Position numbers and translations under genes: made by a program. The notes beneath the pieces are model-generated. The model ran no database searches. It was not told where the DNA came from and worked only from the letters and a program-made list of their open reading frames with translations. DNA of 64,000 nucleotides from Verrucomicrobium spinosum DSM 4136 = JCM 18804. GTDB lineage: Bacteria; Verrucomicrobiota; Verrucomicrobiia; Verrucomicrobiales; Verrucomicrobiaceae. The stretch spans positions 3,567,105 through 3,631,104 of the forward strand of contig NZ_ABIZ01000001.1 in NCBI RefSeq assembly GCF_000172155.1. Reading direction: 5' to 3'. Shown in pieces: positions 45,301-61,686 of the stretch (the stretch's first letter is position 1; each line of letters begins with the position of its first letter).

Positions 45301-46886
45301 CTAGCAGCCTGTCGGACTTTGAAAATGCGATTGGGCTGTGTTAGGTAGAGCGATGGCGAGCCGGTTTGTAGTCATTGATCACGACACCCCTCTGTTGCTG
45401 CCTCCTGACCTGAGGGACTGGCTTCCCGAGGACCATCTGGTGCATTTTATCATGGATGCGGTCAAACTGCTGGATCTGTGCCAGGCCAGGGTCAACACCC
45501 GGGGCACAGGTTACGCCCAGTACCCTCCTGGCATGATGCTGGGGCTGCTGATCTATTGCTATGCCACGGGCACCTTCAGCAGCCGCAAGATCGAGACGCT
45601 CACTTATGAGAGCGTGGCGGTGCGTTATCTGTGTGCGGACACCCACCCCGATCACGACAGCATCTGCAAGTTCCGGCGTGAGAACAAGGAGCTGCTGGAA
45701 AGCAGTTTTCATCAGGTGCTGGAGTGTGCCGCACGGCTCAACGTGCTGCAAGTGGGGCAGGTGGTGTTGTCGGTGGATGGCACCAAGATTTTGGCCAGCG
45801 CCAGCAAGCACAGCGCCGTGAGCCATGGGCACGCCCAGCAGCAGTTGCTGCTGCTGGAGGAGCAGATCAAAGAGCTCACGGCCAAAGCCGAGGCCGCAGA
45901 CAGCACGCCGTTGCGCGAGGGGCTGAGTCTGCCTGAGGAGATCCGGCGGCGTCAGAAGCGGCAGGAAAAGCTGCGGGAGGCAGTGCAGGTCATCGAGCAA
46001 AGAGCTCGTGAGCGGCATCAGCAGGAGCAGGCGGCCTATGAACGCAAGCTTCAGGAGCGCCAGGACCGGGAACAAGCGCGGGGCAAAAAGACCGGAGGCA
46101 AGGCCCCTCAACCACCCAAGGAAGGGCCTCAAGCCAAAGACCAGTACAACTTTACCGATCCACAGAGCCGGATCATGAAACACGGCGGTGGGGAGCACTT
46201 TGAGCAAAGTTACAATGCGCAAGCGGCCGTTGAGGTGCAAAGCCGCCTTGTGGTGAGCCAGCTGGTCAGCGATGCGCCCAACGACAAGGAGCAGCTGGTG
46301 CCGGTGCTGGAAAACAAAAGCCCCGTTGTGCAGAGCCTCAGCGTGGTGCTGGTGGACAGCGGTTACTACAGTGAGGCGGCGATCCGACAGGTGGAGGTGC
46401 CTGATGCAGACACCGGGGTGAGTCCGCAGGTGTATGCGGCGACGCGACGGCACAAGCACGGGCGTAGTGTCAAGGACCTTGAGCAGCATGACGATCCGCC
46501 GCCACCACCGCCCGGAGCGCCGGTCAAAGCGATCATGGAGCAGCGGTTGGAAACCCAGGAGGGCAAAGCCCTCTACGGGTTGCGCAAGCAGACGGTGGAA
46601 CCTGTGTTTGGCATCATCAAATCTGCGATGGGCTTTCGTCGGTTCAGCCTGCGCGGGCTCACGAAAGTGGGGCTGGAGTGGACGCTGGTCACGCTCAGTT
46701 ACAATCTCAAGCGTCTGTATCACCTTGGGACAAGGCTCCCAGCCTGAAGAAAGCGGCTCAAGCGAGCTCAGCGGCGGGAAATGCAACGACACGGCTGGCT
46801 CCAACCGCGCCTCATCCATCTGACACGACGACTCCGGTTCCCCGATCGCACTCCTGCAGCATCCAGCAAATCCGACAGGCTGCTAG
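45301..46886 (+). mobile_element. Complete IS1182-like insertion sequence
   Basis: Flanked by 16-bp perfect inverted repeats, CTAGCAGCCTGTCGGA at 45301-45316 and its complement at 46871-46886. The outer CTAG is itself palindromic and could be a 4-bp target duplication, making the IR core CAGCCTGTCGGA. It carries one transposase gene and about 120 bp of 3' non-coding DNA. It lies between the frameshifted membrane gene and a PEP-CTERM gene and interrupts neither. Confidence 0.85.
45353..46747 (+). CDS. IS1182-family DDE transposase
   Basis: About 464 residues from the ATG at 45353 (MASRFVVIDHDTPLLLPPDL); the frame extends 15 bp upstream. DUF772-like N-terminal domain (LPEDHLVHFIMDAVKLLDL, YPPGMMLGLLIYCYATGTFSSRKIE, DSICKFRRENKELL), then the DDE core: SVDGTKI (first Asp), VVLVDSGYYSE (second Asp) and TVEPVFGIIKSAMGFRRF (Glu). 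A long charged coiled-coil insertion (about 165-255) and a poly-Pro stretch lie within. The frame is intact, so the element may be active. Confidence 0.9.
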   Translation: MASRFVVIDHDTPLLLPPDLRDWLPEDHLVHFIMDAVKLLDLCQARVNTRGTGYAQYPPGMMLGLLIYCYATGTFSSRKIETLTYESVAVRYLCADTHPDHDSICKFRRENKELLESSFHQVLECAARLNVLQVGQVVLSVDGTKILASASKHSAVSHGHAQQQLLLLEEQIKELTAKAEAADSTPLREGLSLPEEIRRRQKRQEKLREAVQVIEQRARERHQQEQAAYERKLQERQDREQARGKKTGGKAPQPPKEGPQAKDQYNFTDPQSRIMKHGGGEHFEQSYNAQAAVEVQSRLVVSQLVSDAPNDKEQLVPVLENKSPVVQSLSVVLVDSGYYSEAAIRQVEVPDADTGVSPQVYAATRRHKHGRSVKDLEQHDDPPPPPPGAPVKAIMEQRLETQEGKALYGLRKQTVEPVFGIIKSAMGFRRFSLRGLTKVGLEWTLVTLSYNLKRLYHLGTRLPA

Positions 46887-47723: not shown

Positions 47724-47760
47724 AAAAACCCGTTTCCGAAGGCGGTCCGGAAACGGGTTT
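47724..47760 (-). terminator. Terminator of the ATPase/W-x-D operon
   Basis: A 13-bp perfect stem (47726-47738 with 47748-47760). On the minus strand it lies just past the stop at 47787 and is followed by a T run. Confidence 0.85.
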
Positions 47761-47786: not shown

Positions 47787-50700
47787 TCACTTCAACTTCT
47801 GTCCTGCCTCCTCGATCCAACCTGCATCGGGCATGGCGTAGGGACGGAAGGTTTCCAGAGTGCCTTCGTGCTCGTTGTAGAACAGAGCCCGGTGCAGCCC
47901 CAGATTGCTGGCCTTGGGGGAGTCAATCAGGCTCGCAGAATCGTTGGCGCTCATCTGGAAGACCACTCGCATCTCAAACTCGCTCAGCGCCTTGCGGCTC
48001 AGAGAGCGGTTGACGTTGTTAAACGTATCCACCGTGGTGATGACGTGCATCCCGAGGGAGCTGCCCTCGGTGATGAGATCCACGAACTGGGTGCCTGGGT
48101 TGCCACCCCCTTCGTCGTCACTGCTCATGGAGAAGCTGAAGTCATCCTCCTGACGCAGCTTCTTGTACTTGTGCAGGCCATGGATGAGCAGGAAGACCGC
48201 GGGGGCGCGGGAAGCTTCGATCTCACCGTTGCTGCGGGCCTTCATCTCGGTGGAGAGTTCGGACATGATCGTGCCGATGTCCTGGCCCCGTGAGACGATG
48301 ACTTCGTGAGGCACAGCCGCGATGGCCCGCTCGATGAAGTCTGAATCCGTGGTGCCCGGGGTGCACCCGTGGAGCACCACAAACTTGGCGCCTCCCACAG
48401 GATACTGGGCGGCCAGGGAGAGCAGGGAGGTGCCCAATAGGGTGAGCGCAGCTTCGTCCCGCTGTCCGACAATGAGCAGGTGATTCCCGCTCTGACGATG
48501 GAAGGCGGCTTCCGTGGGCCCCTTGATAGAATTCGGCGCACCGAGCCAGGCCTTGCCAGCCAGAGGCTGACTGGCGGGTTTGGTGTCGAGCGCAAAGCGG
48601 AGCAGTTGGTTCTCGCGAAGATCGGCGGGGGCGTTGCCTTCGAAGACGATGGGGGAGGTGTACTCGTGTCCGCGCTCCACGGCCAGATCGTGGACCTTGT
48701 CCAGCCACTCGTCCCGTTCATCATCTCCCAGCCAGACCACCTGGAACGGGCTGTTGCCTTCGATTGCGCCAGCGGCATCATTGTAGATGCCCTCGCCCGG
48801 ACGGGTGAGGAGGCGGGGGGCAGAGTTGTTCTCATCCATGATGAGGTAGGCGTCTGCTTCATTGCACTGGAGGGCCACACGAATGACCATCTGGCCCAGC
48901 GTGGCGCGGGCCAGCGAGTAGGCGCCGCCCAGTGTCTGTGAACCCAGGAGCACATGGATGCCAAAGGCGCGGCCTTGACGGACGATGCGGTCAAAAAGCA
49001 GGGAAGCCGTCTGGGCGATGGTGTCATCGTCCACGAAGAACTCCTGGAACTCGTCAATGAGCAGCAGGGACCGAGGCATGGGCTCGGTGCCGCCCGCCCG
49101 CTTGTAGCCAGCGACGTCCTGCACCCCGAGCTTCCGAAACATGTCTCCACGACGTTTCAGTTCGCCGTCCACACGCTGAAGCACGCTCAAGGCGAACTCA
49201 CGATCACTCTCAATGGCGACCACCTTGGCGTGAGGCAGTTTTTTCGAGGCATAGCACTTGAATTCAACCCCTTTCTTGAAGTCGATGAGATAGAACTCCA
49301 CTTCTTCCGGGCTGCAGGTGAGCGCGAGGTTGGTGATGATGACGTGGAAGAGCGTCGATTTCCCTGAACCCGTCTTTCCAGCGAAGAGGGCGTGTTGCCG
49401 GGTGCCTTTGCCGATGGCCAGGTACTGGAGTTTGGTGGCACCTGTGCGTCCGATGGCGATGCGCAGTTCGTTGGTGGTTTCGCCCGTCCAGAGTTCTCCT
49501 GGCGGCGGGGCGATCTGGGAAAAGGGCACCTGGACGATGTTGGAGTCGATGCTGCTCTTGCCGATCCGGTGGACGAGTTGCACGGCGAGGTCCGGATTGG
49601 GCGGGGCGTCGAACACCAGGGTGGCACCAGACTTCTTCACCACATCGTCCGCCAGGACAAAGCCATTCCGTTCCTTGCGCAGGCAGATGCTGTTCTGACG
49701 CAGTTCGTCGGGCGTGAACCCATCTGGAAGGGGGTGGCGTTGATCCCAATGAATGAGCGTGTAGATGCCACAGCGAGGGCCGCTGGTGGCAATGCTCTGT
49801 AGTCGTTTGGCCGCGGTCTCGCTGAAGTTCACGGGGAAGTCGGCGATGACGAGGAAATGATATTTTTCCGCCACGCTCCCCGCCTGCTCATTGTACTCGG
49901 TGATCGAGGCGTACTCATTCCGAAGGTACATCTGGATGACCTTCTCGATGTGTTCGCTCAACTCGGCGAGGCGCTCCTCGATCTGGTCGCGCTGCGTCCA
50001 GATACGTCGGTTGATGAGCGTTTCCTCGTAGTCGGAGAGGTGCATGAGGCCGGCGAAACTCTGGCCCAGTCCCACCGGGTCAATGATCGTGAAGCTGAGC
50101 TTGCCGGGAGGGGTGGTTGCCAGGAGGCGGAGGATGATGTTGTTCAGCGCATCTATGGCGGTGGTGCCACCCGGTTCGTTGGTCTCGAACAACAGGGAGC
50201 CCTGATAGGGGAAGGAGAGTGAAAGCGGGATGGAGAGCTTTGACGGTCCGGGGAGGGCAAGGCGCGGATCCTTGGGCAGAGTGGCGGTCGGTCGAGCCAG
50301 ATCCACTTCGAGCTGGGCGAAGCGTGTGGCGGGGGTGAAGTCTGTCGGGGGCTTCCAGCCCTCTGCATAACCCGCATGCCATTGGGGGAACCGTGCGGCG
50401 GTGGCCGAGTTCATCTGGCTGATGGCATCATAGATCGGAGTGATCTCGCTCTTCCATTCGGTCTCGATTTGATGCCAGCGTGCGCTCTCGCCAGACTCTA
50501 GGGAGGCGACATCGGCCTGTTGGGCGGCACGCAACTGGGAGATGATGGCGGAGTCTGTATTCGATACGGAATCAATCTTGTGGGTTTGCTCGGCCTCCAC
50601 GCGTGCCAGACGGCTGGCAAGGGTGTGGTCAATCTTTGCCAGCAGTCGGGGATGTTGTGCCGCGAGCTTGGCCTTCGTGCGCTCCTCGAACTCCTGAGCC

Positions 50701-51677
50701 ACCTCGTCGGCGCGCAGCTTCTGTTCCTCGATTTCCGCCACTTCACGGTCGAACGCGTCCTGTAGTGCTCCGCGGCCCTGTTGAGTATGCGAATCCACGG
50801 TGGCCCGGCAGCTGTCCTGGAGGAAGCGGGCTTCCTTGATCGATGCGGCCAGTTCTTTGGCCAGCGGTTTCACCTTGGACATGCCGATGAGGTGGATGAT
50901 CCAGACGGAGATGAATGCCACAGCGCAGCCCGTGGCGACGACGCCGTAGTCCTTAGGATGAAGCCCCATCCCATACAAGGCACCCAGGCCGACCAGGACG
51001 ATGCCGAGAGCGAAGAAGGTGAGAGGGACTTTTGCAAAAAGCCGGGGGAGGGGGAACTGCTTGAATTCCTCCAGTTGCTTCTCACCGGCTGCCAGATGGG
51101 CCTGTAGGTGGTTGAGCCACTCCACCTCCTCACCCGCAGGGATGGGGCCCGGAAGAGGGGCCTTGCGACGAACCCGGATCATGCTGATAAACGAGCTGGA
51201 GCCCGCGAAGGCATCTCGCGTGCGGTGCAACAGATCGGTGAACTGTGACTGATAGGTGGCCAGACGGCGGGTGAACTCCGGGTTGATCACGCCGGATGCT
51301 TCCAACTGACGTTCCAAACGGAAGCGACGCATTTGCAGTTCGCCCAGCCAGCTTTCCCGTACCTCCCTAACGCGGCGGGGTAGATGCCGGGTGAGGACCA
51401 GATGGGAGCGTTCCACGCGCGTACGCCGCCTTTCATAGACGTGCTTGAGACGCGCTGACTCAGCCTCCAGATGTGCCTGGGCTTCGGAAACTTCGCGGTC
51501 GAGCCGGCCTTGCGCCTGATCAATGGTGACCTGATGTTTTTGTGTGACGATATTGCGCTGTGTGCGCAGTTCCTTCTGTAGCTGATCCTCGCGCTTGGCG
51601 AAGTCTGCCACTTTGCTTTCCAGTGCGCCGAGCAACTCGACGCTCCGGCTGGCTCTGAGATCCAACCCGTTACTCAC
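47787..51677 (-). CDS. FtsK/SpoIIIE-type ATPase, EccC/YukB-like, of a type-VII-like module
   Basis: A 1296-residue protein starting at a GTG (51677). The N-terminal about 210 residues are a coiled coil; two membrane helices follow (about 216-240 LTFFALGIVLVGLGALYGMG and 248-270), then a second coiled coil (about 275-400). Three FtsK-like domains come next. The first (about 460-700) has a degenerate P-loop. The second has Walker A GKTGSGKST (about 763-771) and Walker B LLLIDEFQEFF (about 868). The third (about 1065-1260) reads LIVGQRDEAALT with no P-loop Lys. This triple arrangement is that of EccC/EssC, the motor of type VII secretion, but here only the middle domain looks active. It is the last gene of a four-gene operon with the W-x-D proteins, whose reading frame overlaps its start. 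Confidence 0.85.
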   Translation of the reverse strand: MSNGLDLRASRSVELLGALESKVADFAKREDQLQKELRTQRNIVTQKHQVTIDQAQGRLDREVSEAQAHLEAESARLKHVYERRRTRVERSHLVLTRHLPRRVREVRESWLGELQMRRFRLERQLEASGVINPEFTRRLATYQSQFTDLLHRTRDAFAGSSSFISMIRVRRKAPLPGPIPAGEEVEWLNHLQAHLAAGEKQLEEFKQFPLPRLFAKVPLTFFALGIVLVGLGALYGMGLHPKDYGVVATGCAVAFISVWIIHLIGMSKVKPLAKELAASIKEARFLQDSCRATVDSHTQQGRGALQDAFDREVAEIEEQKLRADEVAQEFEERTKAKLAAQHPRLLAKIDHTLASRLARVEAEQTHKIDSVSNTDSAIISQLRAAQQADVASLESGESARWHQIETEWKSEITPIYDAISQMNSATAARFPQWHAGYAEGWKPPTDFTPATRFAQLEVDLARPTATLPKDPRLALPGPSKLSIPLSLSFPYQGSLLFETNEPGGTTAIDALNNIILRLLATTPPGKLSFTIIDPVGLGQSFAGLMHLSDYEETLINRRIWTQRDQIEERLAELSEHIEKVIQMYLRNEYASITEYNEQAGSVAEKYHFLVIADFPVNFSETAAKRLQSIATSGPRCGIYTLIHWDQRHPLPDGFTPDELRQNSICLRKERNGFVLADDVVKKSGATLVFDAPPNPDLAVQLVHRIGKSSIDSNIVQVPFSQIAPPPGELWTGETTNELRIAIGRTGATKLQYLAIGKGTRQHALFAGKTGSGKSTLFHVIITNLALTCSPEEVEFYLIDFKKGVEFKCYASKKLPHAKVVAIESDREFALSVLQRVDGELKRRGDMFRKLGVQDVAGYKRAGGTEPMPRSLLLIDEFQEFFVDDDTIAQTASLLFDRIVRQGRAFGIHVLLGSQTLGGAYSLARATLGQMVIRVALQCNEADAYLIMDENNSAPRLLTRPGEGIYNDAAGAIEGNSPFQVVWLGDDERDEWLDKVHDLAVERGHEYTSPIVFEGNAPADLRENQLLRFALDTKPASQPLAGKAWLGAPNSIKGPTEAAFHRQSGNHLLIVGQRDEAALTLLGTSLLSLAAQYPVGGAKFVVLHGCTPGTTDSDFIERAIAAVPHEVIVSRGQDIGTIMSELSTEMKARSNGEIEASRAPAVFLLIHGLHKYKKLRQEDDFSFSMSSDDEGGGNPGTQFVDLITEGSSLGMHVITTVDTFNNVNRSLSRKALSEFEMRVVFQMSANDSASLIDSPKASNLGLHRALFYNEHEGTLETFRPYAMPDAGWIEEAGQKLK

Positions 51678-51882
51678 AGTCGTTTTTCACCTTTCTAAGC
51701 AAATTGTCCATCTCCTCCATGACGTTCCGCGCATGGGTCACCAGATGCGGAAGTTTTTCGAGGTAGTGTTCCTGAAACTCTAGGGCCTTTTGGTCCCGCC
51801 AACTGGACCGCGTTTGCTGCCATTCCACCGTCAATTCACGGAGGGCTTGGGCGAGATTGGAGGCGCTGACGCGAGTGCTCAT
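51670..51882 (-). CDS. Small W-x-D helical-hairpin protein (WXG100-like)
   Basis: A 70-residue protein, starting MSTRVSASNLAQALRELTVE. The central turn is SWRDQKALEFQEHYLEKLP with Trp28-Arg-Asp30 where WXG100 proteins have W-x-G, flanked by two long amphipathic helices. It is shorter than the usual about 100 residues. Its stop overlaps the ATPase start by 8 bp, which argues for coupling in stoichiometry and function. By analogy it would be a secreted substrate or chaperone partner of the ATPase (inference). The open frame extends upstream over the next gene, but those residues belong to the coiled-coil protein's antiframe. Confidence 0.75.
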   Translation of the reverse strand: MSTRVSASNLAQALRELTVEWQQTRSSWRDQKALEFQEHYLEKLPHLVTHARNVMEEMDNLLRKVKNDCE

Positions 51883-51955
51883 GTGATAGGAAAAAGAAGC
51901 GGCTGAAAAGAATCGAAAACGCCGTGGCGGACGAGGAGTCTTTAGGGACAAAACC

Positions 51956-52492
51956 TCAGGAGGGTTGTTCAGATTCCGCCGCACTCGGCAAGGAGGTGCT
52001 TGGCCCGGAGGGGGCGGGACCTCCCACCTGATGATAGGACTCCAGAATCTTCTGAACCTGGTCCAAATAGGCGACGGCTTTGGGCAGATCGTGATCCACA
52101 TAATCCCGCAGCATCTCCATCTTTCGCACATGGGGATCAAAGGTGCTGTCGAAGTTCCGGTTCCACGCTTTGACCCGCTCCAGTTTTTGCTCCGCCTCGG
52201 CGACGGCTGCCTTGGCCTTCCGGACAGCGGCTTGTTGCTGGGAGGGGGAGTCCACGAACTCGGACATCCGGGCCGTCATGAGCTCGCCTTCTACCTGCTC
52301 CAACATGCGTCGGCGCCGACGAATCTGCCCTTCCCAATGAGTGCGCTGTTCCGTCTGTACCCAGGCACGGGCACGGCGGATCTCGTCGCCCGACTGGTCA
52401 AGCGAGCGCCGGGCCTTCGTGATGAAAATGACGAGGTGCGCCCGGAAGCTCTGGAGGGCGTCGAGTGAGGTGATTTTTGCCTGATCAGCCAT
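51956..52492 (-). CDS. Coiled-coil protein of the W-x-D operon
   Basis: A 178-residue highly helical protein (MADQAKITSLDALQSFRAHL). It has heptad-like charged segments (about 15-150), a W-E-G triplet at 53-55 inside THWEGQIRRRRR, and a Pro/Ser-rich C-tail (GGPAPSGPSTSLPSAAESEQ). No known domain. It sits between the two W-x-D proteins. It could be a bacterial analogue of an EspC- or EssA-like accessory, a scaffold, or a substrate; these are guesses. No membrane segment or signal peptide. Confidence 0.7.
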   Translation of the reverse strand: MADQAKITSLDALQSFRAHLVIFITKARRSLDQSGDEIRRARAWVQTEQRTHWEGQIRRRRRMLEQVEGELMTARMSEFVDSPSQQQAAVRKAKAAVAEAEQKLERVKAWNRNFDSTFDPHVRKMEMLRDYVDHDLPKAVAYLDQVQKILESYHQVGGPAPSGPSTSLPSAAESEQPS

Positions 52493-52510
52493 GATATGCT
52501 GGAAAGCAGC

Positions 52511-52783
52511 TTAACGTTGATCGAGGTATTGTTCGATGCGTTGCGCCTTTCGCAGGAGAAAAGGAGTGTGCTTTTCAGAGATCTCCACGAATTTTTTGAG
52601 AGCTTTCATGGTGGTGATGAACTCCTCGGCAAACTTCTCATGCTCCTGATCCTGCCAGGTGCCGCTCAGCGCCGCGAAACGAGCATTCAAAGCCGAGGCC
52701 TTGGTCTGCACTTCGTCATTGAAGCGCTTCAGCTCCTTGGCGAAGCGTCGCACCTCCTCTGGATCCATGATTGCCTGTGCCAT
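52511..52783 (-). CDS. WXG100-like protein with W-x-D turn
   Basis: A 90-residue protein; the ATG at 52783 (MAQAIMDPEEVRRFAKELKR) is chosen because residues upstream in the frame are non-helical and Arg-rich. Size and helix-turn-helix layout match WXG100. The turn reads GTWQDQEHEKFAEEF (Trp43-Gln-Asp45), so Gly is replaced by Asp, exactly as in the 70-residue partner. It is the first gene of the operon, with the long upstream region 52784-53026. A candidate substrate of the ATPase (inference). Confidence 0.8.
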   Translation of the reverse strand: MAQAIMDPEEVRRFAKELKRFNDEVQTKASALNARFAALSGTWQDQEHEKFAEEFITTMKALKKFVEISEKHTPFLLRKAQRIEQYLDQR

Positions 52784-59835: not shown

Positions 59836-59944
59836 GAACCCGCTGCGCGGGAGACGCCAGACTAGAAGACACAAGACACCAGACTTGATTGCTGGTGCCT
59901 GTTTGAATTCGCCCTCTGTTGTTCGCTTCAGGGGATGTGCGCCT

Positions 59945-61686
59945 GAGCGGGGCTGGGAACCGCCTCCTTTATGCACGAACAAACTGCGAGGTGACTTGGC
60001 CAGGGAGTAGAGGAGGCGGGGTCTCCGGCCCCGCAGTCTGTGGGATGGGCGGGGCAGGAAGGGGATCGAGGGACGTTTGATGCGTGAGCAGGGCTGGGAA
60101 CCCCCGCCTCCTGTACTCAAGAACAAGCTGCAACATAGCTTGTCCGCGGAATAGAGGAGGTGGGGTCTCTGGCCCCGCGGTCTGTGGGGCGGCCGGGGCG
60201 GGAAGGGGATCAAGGGACGATTGGGGCGTGAGCGGGGCTGGGAACCCCCGCCTCCTTTACGCACGAACAAGCTTCAAGGTCACATGGCTGCAGAGTAGAG
60301 GAGGCGGGGTCTCCGGCCCCGCGGTCTTGCGGGCGGCCGGGGCGGGAAGGGGATCGAGGGACGTTTGATGCGTGAGCGGGGCTGGGAACCCCCGCCTCCT
60401 GTACCCAGGAACAAGCTTCAAGGTCACATGGCCGCAGAGTAGAGGAGGTGGGGTCTCCGGCCCCGCGGGTCTGTGGGGTGGCCGGAGCGGGAATGGGATC
60501 AAGAGACGATTGGGGCGTGAGCGGGGCTGGGAACCCCCGCCTCCTGCACTCAAGAACAAGCTTCATGATGACATGGCCGCAGAGTAAAGGAGGCGGGTTC
60601 TCTGGCCCCGCGGTCTTGCGGGCGGCCGGGGCAGGAAGGGGATCGAGGGACGTTTGATGCGTGAGCGGGGCTGGGAACCCCCGCCTCCTGTACTCAAGAA
60701 CAAGCTGCAACATAGCTTGTCCGCGGAATAGAGGAGGTGGGGTCTCTGGCCCCGCGGTCTGTGGGGCGGCCGGGGCGGAAAGGGGATCAAGGGACGATTG
60801 GGGCGTGAGCGGGGCTGGGAACCCCCGCCTCCTGCACTCAAGAACAAGCTTCATGATGACATGGCCGCAGAGTAAAGGAGGCGGGGTCTCTGGCCCCGCG
60901 GTCTGTGGGGCGGCCGGGGCGGAAAGGGGATCAAGGGACGATTGGGGCGTGAGCGGGGCTGGGAACCCCCGCCTCCTTTACGCACGAACAAGCTTCAAGG
61001 TCACATGGCCGCAGAGTAGAGGAGGCGGGGTCTCTGGCCCCGCGGTCTTGCGGGCGGCCGGGGCGGGAAGGGGATCGAGGGACGATTGGGGCGTGAGCGG
61101 GGCTGGGAACCCCCGCCTCCTGCACTCAAGAACAAGCTGCAACATAGCTTGTCCGCGGAATAGAGGAGGCGGGGTCTCTGGCCCCGCGGTCTGTGGGGCG
61201 GCCGGGGCGGAAAGGGGATCAAGGGACGATTGGGGCGTGAGCGGGGCTGGGAACCCCCGCCTCCTGTACTCAAGAACAAGCTGCAACATAGCTTGTCCGC
61301 GGAATAGAGGAGGTGGGGTCTCTGGCCCCGCGGTCTGTGGGGCGGCCGGGGCGGGAAGGGGATCAAGGGACGATTGGGGCGTGAGCGGGGCTGGGAGCCC
61401 CCGCCTCCTTTACGCACGAACAAGCTTCAAGGTCACATGGCTGCAGAGTAGAGGAGGCGGGGTCTCCGGCCCCGCGGTCTTGCGGGCGGCCGGGGCGGGA
61501 AGGGGATCGAGGGACGTTTGATGCGTGAGCGGGGCTGGGAACCCCCGCCTCCTGTACTCAGGAACAAGCTTCAAGGTCACATGGCCGCAGAGTAGAGGAG
61601 GTGGGGTCTCCGGCCCCGCAGTCTGTGGGATGGCCGGAGCGGGAAGGAGATCGTGGGACGTTTGGGGTGTGAGCGGGGCTGGGTTT
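59945..61686. repeat. Tandem array of twelve 144-bp units
   Basis: Units start with GAGCGGGGCTGGGAAC at 59945, 60086, 60230, 60374, 60519, 60663, 60807, 60951, 61095, 61239, 61383 and 61527, and a partial at 61671; spacing is 141, 144, 144, 145, then 144 throughout. Each unit holds a large inverted repeat (CCCCCGCCTCCT... and ...GGAGGCGGGG) around a variable core of three main types: AACAAGCTGCAACATAGCTTGT (A), a GCTTCAAGGTCACATGGC form (B), and GCTTCATGATGACATGGC (C). Order: divergent, A, B, B, C, A, C, B, A, A, B, B. 144 is divisible by three, so frames stay open on both strands without being real genes. It sits directly behind parC. Confidence 0.95.

Follow-up and report, generated by a model that had tools for sequence, protein, structure and literature searches.

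A four-gene WXG100-FtsK module of Verrucomicrobium spinosum and its retention across Verrucomicrobiota and Planctomycetota

Introduction

Verrucomicrobium spinosum DSM 4136 = JCM 18804 carries an operon that joins a large FtsK-like ATPase to a WXG100-family protein and two further small proteins. What does such a set, reminiscent of the core of a type VII secretion system, do in a diderm host? The hosts in which type VII systems have been described are Actinomycetota and Bacillota. The operon lies in a 64,000-nucleotide stretch, here called the window, at positions 3,567,105 to 3,631,104 of contig NZ_ABIZ01000001.1, the one contig of an 8.22-Mb genome. An initial annotation of the window had called the operon type-VII-like and had proposed a minimal secretion, conjugation-like or translocation device. 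We report that the motor, an FtsK/HerA ATPase of the EccC/EssC branch, is evolutionarily coupled to three partners, generally present in one copy each; it has one active and two degenerate ATPase domains and, in most species, a membrane hairpin. The four genes very probably make up one machine.

Results

Four genes retained together

All four genes lie on the minus strand, at the place and with the W-x-D sequences that the initial annotation gave. The WXG100-family protein (52511..52783; 90 aa), with W43-Q-D45 in its hairpin turn and the C-terminus Y86-L-D-Q-R90, is followed by a long helical-hairpin (coiled-coil) protein (51956..52492; 178 aa), a mini WXG-like protein (51670..51882; 70 aa) with W28-R-D30 and a D-C-E end, and an EccC/EssC-like FtsK-HerA ATPase (47787..51677; 1296 aa) with a GTG start. 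The genes are packed as closely as had been proposed, with 18 bp between the WXG100 and long-hairpin genes, 73 bp between the long-hairpin and mini-protein genes, and an 8-bp overlap of the mini-protein and ATPase genes.

Relatives were taken from a contig scan, as the best 80 of 459. With identical ATPases collapsed, and with the window and one Phycisphaerales locus included, there were 97 distinct loci, among which the nearest named relative of the window locus was that of Verrucomicrobium sp. BvORR106. All four genes were present in 84 loci, and in all 84 they stood in the same order. The alignments A2, A3 and A4 hold 62, 62 and 60 of these 84 loci, and A5 holds 47 of 129. Seven of the 13 loci without all four genes are cut by contig ends, with fewer than 1200 bases upstream; two (L050 and L051) are of the type called CoCoNuT (coiled-coil nuclease tandem); in another (L046) the three small genes stand together on another contig. 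For three near relatives the assembly labels, "Bacteroidetes" for L059, "Omnitrophota" for L117 and "Akkermansia muciniphila" for L070, were set aside; the assemblies seem more likely to be mis-binned or misnamed.

The same company was seen when whole genomes were searched. Of the 387 genomes searched in the window's phylum, 22 have the ATPase and 20 the WXG100 protein, the 20 all being among the 22; G051 and G320, the remaining two, show only partial ATPase matches and no WXG100 match, and G195, counted among the 20, is CoCoNuT-like. Among 392 planctomycete genomes the ATPase was found in 62, the WXG100 protein in 60 and both in 59 (Fisher p 3e-65, not corrected for kinship). The WXG100 profile was built partly from genomes searched in the 387-genome set; for Planctomycetota only one genome, G387, contributed to it. 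Four planctomycete genomes have one of the two proteins only. Two of these, G608 and G725, are contig fragments; in G766 the ATPase match starts 643 bases into the contig, and the contig of G685 ends just after the three small genes.

Planctomycete gene order was examined at the loci of 40 of the 62 ATPase-positive genomes, and the full four-gene order was present in 30, which bears out the expectation that the order would recur across Verrucomicrobia and Planctomycetes. In nine of the ten other loci the WXG100 gene is elsewhere in the genome. On one contig of G494, for example, the ATPase gene lies at 0.23, the WXG100 gene at 0.71, the mini-protein gene at 1.94 and the long-hairpin gene at 2.66 Mb; the corresponding positions are 5.92, 2.50, 4.30 and 4.30 Mb in G413 and 2.49, 2.83, 2.33 and 2.33 Mb in G745. 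The three small genes are clustered far from the ATPase gene in G541 and G696, and all four genes are present in G605 and G465. In G526 and G583, which lay outside the genome-wide long-hairpin search, the ATPase, WXG100 and mini-protein genes were found. Linkage cannot account for the retention of such unlinked parts. The small proteins accompany the ATPase whether linked to it or not, a result that speaks strongly for the initial annotation, which had made co-occurrence its test. The 60 planctomycete genomes with a WXG100 match have a single one each, as do 19 of the 20 genomes of the window's phylum; second matches were seen in G211, where the extra copy is CoCoNuT-like, and, weakly, in G389, one of three genomes in another search. 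Below E 0.01 the long-hairpin profile matched once in 24 of the 25 genomes searched, and not at all in G496.

The motor

The ATPase has an N-terminal coiled coil, a hydrophobic hairpin at about residues 213-268 (hydrophobic segments at 213 and 246), a second coiled coil and three tandem FtsK-like domains, the stretches on either side of the hairpin being coiled coil by our reading of the sequence. It matched Pfam FtsK_SpoIIIE with E 3.7e-32. The NCBIfam profiles EccCa, EccCb and EssC matched it below their own curated cut-offs and ranked above FtsK, which places it in the same branch as EccC/EssC without making it their equivalent. The predicted structure of residues 430-1296 had a mean predicted local distance difference test score (pLDDT) of 89.7, and a Foldseek search with this three-domain part returned EccC first (4nh0, E 3.5e-32), then EssC, then FtsK. 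The description of the ATPase as EccC-like fits these results. The defence labels that PADLOC gave, namely SspH, mads_8 and HerA (through the common FtsK core) and ZorA (through the coiled coil), were not accepted as membership of a defence system.

The P-loop, GKTGSGKS at residues 767-774, is in the middle domain only. Among 129 ATPases, proteins under 1150 aa having been left out, the full Walker A motif was present in the middle domain of all 129 and in neither outer domain of any; GK[ST] alone was present in six first-domain segments. VIA-align matches the middle domain to the FtsK motor fold. In sequence this domain is nearest the first EccC ATPase domain, domain placement being read from numbering; in position it is second among the three. 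In 109 of the 129 proteins at least two hydrophobic segments precede the ATPase domains; 10 proteins have one such segment and 10 none.

The three partners

The WXG100 protein scored over the cut-off of Pfam PF06013 (E 4.7e-11), and W-x-D is present in all 84 orthologues and in 31 of 31 planctomycete proteins, so that its first assignment, with W-Q-D, holds. Lys79, Ala80, Tyr86, Leu87 and Gln89 are invariant as well. Because a script placed the orthologue starts near 90 aa, the common length is no independent evidence. Searched against the Protein Data Bank (PDB), the family profile gave HP0062 as best match (3fx7, E 3.6e-11; 2gts, E 1.1e-10), then EsxB and EsxA.

The mini-protein likewise keeps W-x-D, in 83 of 83 orthologues (one further start could not be set) and in 31 of 31 planctomycete proteins. 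A Cys is among the last five residues in 79 of the 83 orthologues and at or near the C-terminus in 28 of the 31 planctomycete proteins; it is also present where the gene does not overlap the ATPase start (L033). The mini-protein matched NCBIfam WXG100_ESAT6 below cut-off (E 0.0041), and its family profile reached two WXG100 proteins of distant relatedness, at E 1.1e-5 and 1.4e-5; these matches argue for a moderately supported kinship to WXG100. Comparison of the two family alignments by hhalign gave a probability of 9.6% and E 0.0033, with the W-x-D residues aligned, and in the PDB the mini-protein family found HP0062 only at E 0.93-0.94.

The long-hairpin protein was modelled by AlphaFold2 as a single antiparallel hairpin of helices 3-76 and 84-156 (mean pLDDT 90.6), followed by a Pro/Ser-rich tail of low model confidence. 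The helical-hairpin fold expected of the partners is thus predicted for the one of them that was modelled. Tyr153 is invariant in 62 aligned rows. The W-E-G sequence to which the initial annotation drew attention is not conserved: Trp is found at its position in 84% of 84 sequences, the third residue is most often Gly at 29%, and any W-x-G is present in only 26 of the 84 orthologues. The window protein had no Pfam match. Foldseek gave no matches at E <=0.001, the best being generic coiled coils, and the best PDB match of the family profile (E 0.003) was to unrelated helical proteins. Four planctomycete long hairpins (L131:6575-7636, L177:6820-7947, L179 and L187) have C-terminal extensions of 186-208 aa, and both of those tested in Pfam were Imm33-like (PF24719).

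Phylogeny and genomic setting

A tree of the 129 ATPases, made by a quick method with Shimodaira-Hasegawa-like approximate likelihood-ratio support (SH-aLRT) only, separated 90 non-planctomycete from 39 planctomycete rows by a branch with support 87, the tool's own mark being 95. Flanking genes were clustered for 21 loci, for the 97 loci and for the split planctomycete loci, and in the first two sets were conserved only among close relatives. Ten families, chosen from the most recurrent, were searched in Pfam: a hybrid sensor kinase, DUF7133, prepilin-type N-methylation, PSD1/PSCyt, a PQQ propeller, GFO/IDH/MocA, radical SAM/BATS, ThiG and two without a Pfam match. Their positions vary, and none was accepted as a fifth component. 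At the split planctomycete loci the recurrent flanks resemble, by our reading of the sequences, DUF1501, sulfatase, pseudopilin and DegT aminotransferase genes.

In the window the operon ends, as had been noted, in an intrinsic terminator of its own (47726..47760, minus strand), with a 15-pair stem, a T-run, a stability of -23.1 kcal/mol and a z of -3.96; none of 200 shuffles was equally stable. A consensus scan gave 5 terminator-like sites and the shuffles 4.9, so that the case for the terminator depends on stem length and energy. No sigma-70-like promoter was found for the operon, shuffles giving 1.0. The operon is flanked on one side by a CTP synthase gene and on the other by a gene that has no Pfam match and reads like a PEP-CTERM protein. 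The GC content of the module is 0.600 and that of the window 0.587, a difference of about 1 standard deviation, and composition shows no sign of recent import. Downstream of the module, at 45338-46747, is a DDE transposase gene; no such gene is listed there in the locus of the nearest relative (L032). About 12 tandem copies of a 144-bp unit, with long frames open throughout, lie at 59944-61683, downstream of a DNA gyrase/topoisomerase IV A-type gene.

Distant relatives

Four plasmids carry relatives of the ATPase at 27-35% identity, those of Rhodococcus and Deinococcus over all three domains, and those of Caballeronia and Helicobacter over part (residues 417-1017 and 515-969, respectively). 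All four ATPases have beside them a WXG100-like protein (87-89 aa; profile E <=2e-7), a coiled coil (314-436 aa) and a small protein (73-144 aa), the coiled coil and the small protein having been assigned mainly by position. The Rhodococcus ATPase is fused to TerD, and the Caballeronia operon, as annotated, has VWA, PP2C, kinase and CARF genes. The Helicobacter coiled coil ends in a WHH/colicin-DNase domain, with an SMI1/KNR4 protein next to it and an ATPase of 823 aa; homology between it and the long hairpin of the Planctomycetes-Verrucomicrobia-Chlamydiae (PVC) group was not detected by profile search. Four of six such ATPases (the four plasmid ones, L050 and L051) have no hydrophobic segment. 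In the plasmid and phage collections no single place covers 80% of the ATPase, a result that lends no support to the proposed conjugation-like device.

The L050 operon, in the verrucomicrobial genome G211, has the order VWA-WXG100-coiled coil-FtsK-Card1/CARF-VWA-PP2C-kinase and is of CoCoNuT type, with the same layout as the Caballeronia operon; G211 holds a module of the window's type as well. A phage record from human faeces (MT836827.1, H11; 10 kb, unannotated) has a relative of the ATPase over 43% of length.

Discussion

In our reading the module is an old PVC version of the WXG100-FtsK kind that stands alone. There is, in our estimate, slightly better than an even chance that it is a dedicated four-component PVC machine that works like the type VII core, a motor with Esx proteins, at the inner membrane. 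Its partners resemble adaptors or fixed parts of the machine more than they do variable cargo. In such a machine the motor would act as a hexamer at the inner membrane, and the three partners would form a complex that docks on it. The degenerate domains may be docking or regulatory sites, by analogy with the ATPase 2-3 part of EccC, which binds signal peptide according to the title of structure 4n1a. ATP hydrolysis in the middle domain would move the partners, or a client escorted by them, across or along the inner membrane.

A number of results weigh against this picture. YxxxD/E, the C-terminal type VII export motif as quoted from Poulsen et al., was absent from the last 25 residues of all 84 WXG100 orthologues, and the residue four past the invariant Tyr was basic in 83 of 84. 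Searches of the whole genome at E 0.01 gave no match to EssB/YukC, YukD or LXG (PF04740), the B. subtilis control being positive, so that the observation that no EssB lies nearby extends to the entire genome and applies to YukD and LXG too. EccB gave no match in the genome, nor in the control genomes. No outer-membrane component was linked among the recurrent flank families examined. In the 25 genomes there was no second long-hairpin match below E 0.01, the rest being at E >=0.018; with no LXG protein and no second long hairpin, there is no known payload. In structural comparison the Foldseek template-modelling (TM) score to EccC was 0.40, because the domains are turned differently, and the top VIA-align Z (31.3 over 277 residues) belonged to a single-domain FtsK DNA motor; EccC (Z 27.6 over 747 residues, root-mean-square deviation 14.6) and EssC had lower Z over far longer stretches. 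The partners are not invariably present: L093 is without the WXG100 gene, L057 and L095 retain the mini-protein only, and in G496 the WXG100 gene stands beside that of a 1006-aa ATPase, with no long hairpin or mini-protein detectable. Finally, nine Prosthecobacter-like ATPases of 1171-1226 aa, with maximal hydropathy of 0.75-1.08, are membrane-less and form one clade with support 100. The type-VII-like label thus stands for the ATPase and the WXG100 protein and fails for the export motif, EssB, YukD and LXG, and the proposal of a minimal secretion device is not borne out, in view of the missing motif, the lack of an effector among the proteins found and the membrane-less clade.

The membrane-less clade is nested among anchored ATPases. 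A tenth ATPase without a hydrophobic segment (L125; hydropathy 1.45) is borderline and lies elsewhere in the tree. In the fetched DNA all three partners are present in seven of the nine members; the exceptions are L095 and a cut locus, L107. Just upstream of and divergent from six of the nine operons (L089, L096, L101, L102, L103 and L105), and in no other locus searched, is a gene whose product, a membrane protein of some 244 aa, has no Pfam match. This protein may supply the anchor, or its presence may be plain synteny of close relatives.

The strongest alternative is that the module is a non-secretory FtsK/HerA pump or remodeller, acting on DNA or protein in stress response or defence under the control of its hairpin partners, as may be the case for the WXG100/EssC-like part of TerY-P/CoCoNuT operons. 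The missing YxxxD/E, EssB, YukD, LXG and paralogous cargo, together with the membrane-less clade, leave this a real if lesser possibility. In its favor, distant ATPases are accompanied by WXG100-like, coiled-coil and small proteins beside TerD or VWA/PP2C/kinase/CARF genes and mostly lack a hydrophobic segment, and the FtsK motor led the VIA-align comparison. However, most members of the module's own family have the membrane hairpin, profiles place the ATPase nearer EccC than FtsK, and all 39 planctomycete ATPases fall on one side of a branch, unlike a drifting cassette. Nor was a TerY-P or CARF gene present among the 10 window neighbours and the ten recurrent flank families searched, rarer families being unannotated.

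Delivery of polymorphic toxins, with the long hairpin as an LXG-like carrier of varying C-terminal payloads and the small proteins as Lap-like targeting factors, we consider unlikely. The Helicobacter coiled coil, in the same place, with its nuclease end and SMI1/KNR4 neighbour, is what such a system might look like, and the planctomycete extensions could be taken for payloads. Yet Imm33 is an immunity-type and not a toxin-type domain, the window protein ends in a low-confidence tail with no domain match, none of the 25 genomes has a paralogous carrier, and the PVC and Helicobacter proteins show no detectable homology. The Imm33-like extensions and the WHH nuclease hint at conflict biology all the same, the window long hairpin itself being without a toxin domain. 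That the four genes are a mobile or selfish cassette without host function is very improbable: the patchy distribution of the ATPase and the poorly conserved flanks would fit, but unlinked parts are retained, usually in single copy, the planctomycete rows stay together in the ATPase tree, the GC content is only about one standard deviation above the window mean, and no plasmid or phage place covers 80% of the ATPase.

Returning to the dedicated PVC machine, we tentatively entertain a further step, less likely than not: an old, PVC-wide inner-membrane machine that has motor and hairpin partners in common with type VII systems and yet is no secretion system. This possibility arises from the four fixed, usually single-copy parts, the absence of variable cargo and of an export motif, and a membrane anchor that can be dispensed with. 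If it is true, the WXG100-EssC pair would be a motor-adaptor module of general use, with type VII secretion as one of its specialised cases. The four-part form has been kept across Verrucomicrobiota, Planctomycetota and one Lentisphaerota-labelled genome, even where the genes are scattered. The module is a clean minimal set for the role of the EssC motor and WXG100 hairpins without the remaining secretion apparatus, and its natural variants, with a membrane-less motor or Imm33-like extensions, can separate membrane translocation from other functions.

Comparison with known systems

The pairing of a WXG100 protein with an EssC-like FtsK ATPase is, as a kind, already known, Gram-negatives included. 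In diderms it is known mainly from Helicobacter and from defence operons. Sutcliffe reportedly listed WXG100 proteins outside Gram-positives in 2011, so their occurrence in these phyla may already have been published. In searches of open-licence literature, most subscription papers lying outside it, we met no account of a four-gene module of this form standing alone, of its distribution across PVC bacteria or of its retention when unlinked.

Like the motors of T7SSa and T7SSb, the two kinds of type VII secretion system, the window ATPase is of the EccC/EssC branch, has a membrane hairpin before tandem ATPase domains and aligns to EccC over its three-domain part. It differs in having Walker A in the middle of the three domains only, and in having coiled coils where EssC has FHA domains (PMC11090510). 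The WXG100 helical-hairpin partner (PF06013), whose profile matches EsxB and EsxA structures, is shared as well; the hosts, by contrast, are diderm phyla, and the module is without YxxxD/E, EssB, YukD or LXG effectors.

A parallel to the module is the LXG/Lap1/Lap2 set of T7SSb. The likeness, one of architecture, lies in a long hairpin-type protein with two small helical partners and an EssC-type motor (PMC9600955). The window long hairpin differs in being single-copy and without a toxin domain, in a genome without an LXG match.

One of the two nearest known systems is the insert of CoCoNuT III-A, whose WXG100/EssC-like ATPase has three domains of which only the central one is predicted active (PMC11090510). 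Central-only Walker motifs, a long N-terminal coiled coil, a coiled-coil protein and two WXG100-like proteins, one of which lacks the motif in CoCoNuT, are common to both, and the Caballeronia and L050 layouts are the arrangement described for CoCoNuT (PMC11090510). In CoCoNuT, however, the ATPase has no transmembrane helices and the coiled coil is nuclease-fused and part of a defence operon (PMC11090510), whereas the window ATPase and most of its relatives have the membrane hairpin and the window's four genes stand alone. A WXG100/FtsK operon standing alone in other genomes was noted in an earlier study (Anantharaman 2012, per PMC11090510).

The other is in Helicobacter. A pairing of a WxG protein with FtsK, e.g., HP0062 with HP0066, has been termed a minimal type VII set in H. 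pylori (PMC4978471 / PMC3397514). HP0062 is a WXG100-like dimer of a Gram-negative, is clustered with an FtsK/SpoIIIE protein and, according to a review, has WRD at its bend (PMC4978471, PMC3397514). The replacement of Gly by Asp, pointed out for both small window proteins and invariant in each family, is thus real but not new. The related Helicobacter plasmid locus differs in its WHH nuclease, its SMI1 protein and its 823-aa ATPase. In sum, among solved structures the window WXG100 protein matches HP0062 best, and the window operon likewise pairs a W-x-D protein with an FtsK-like ATPase.

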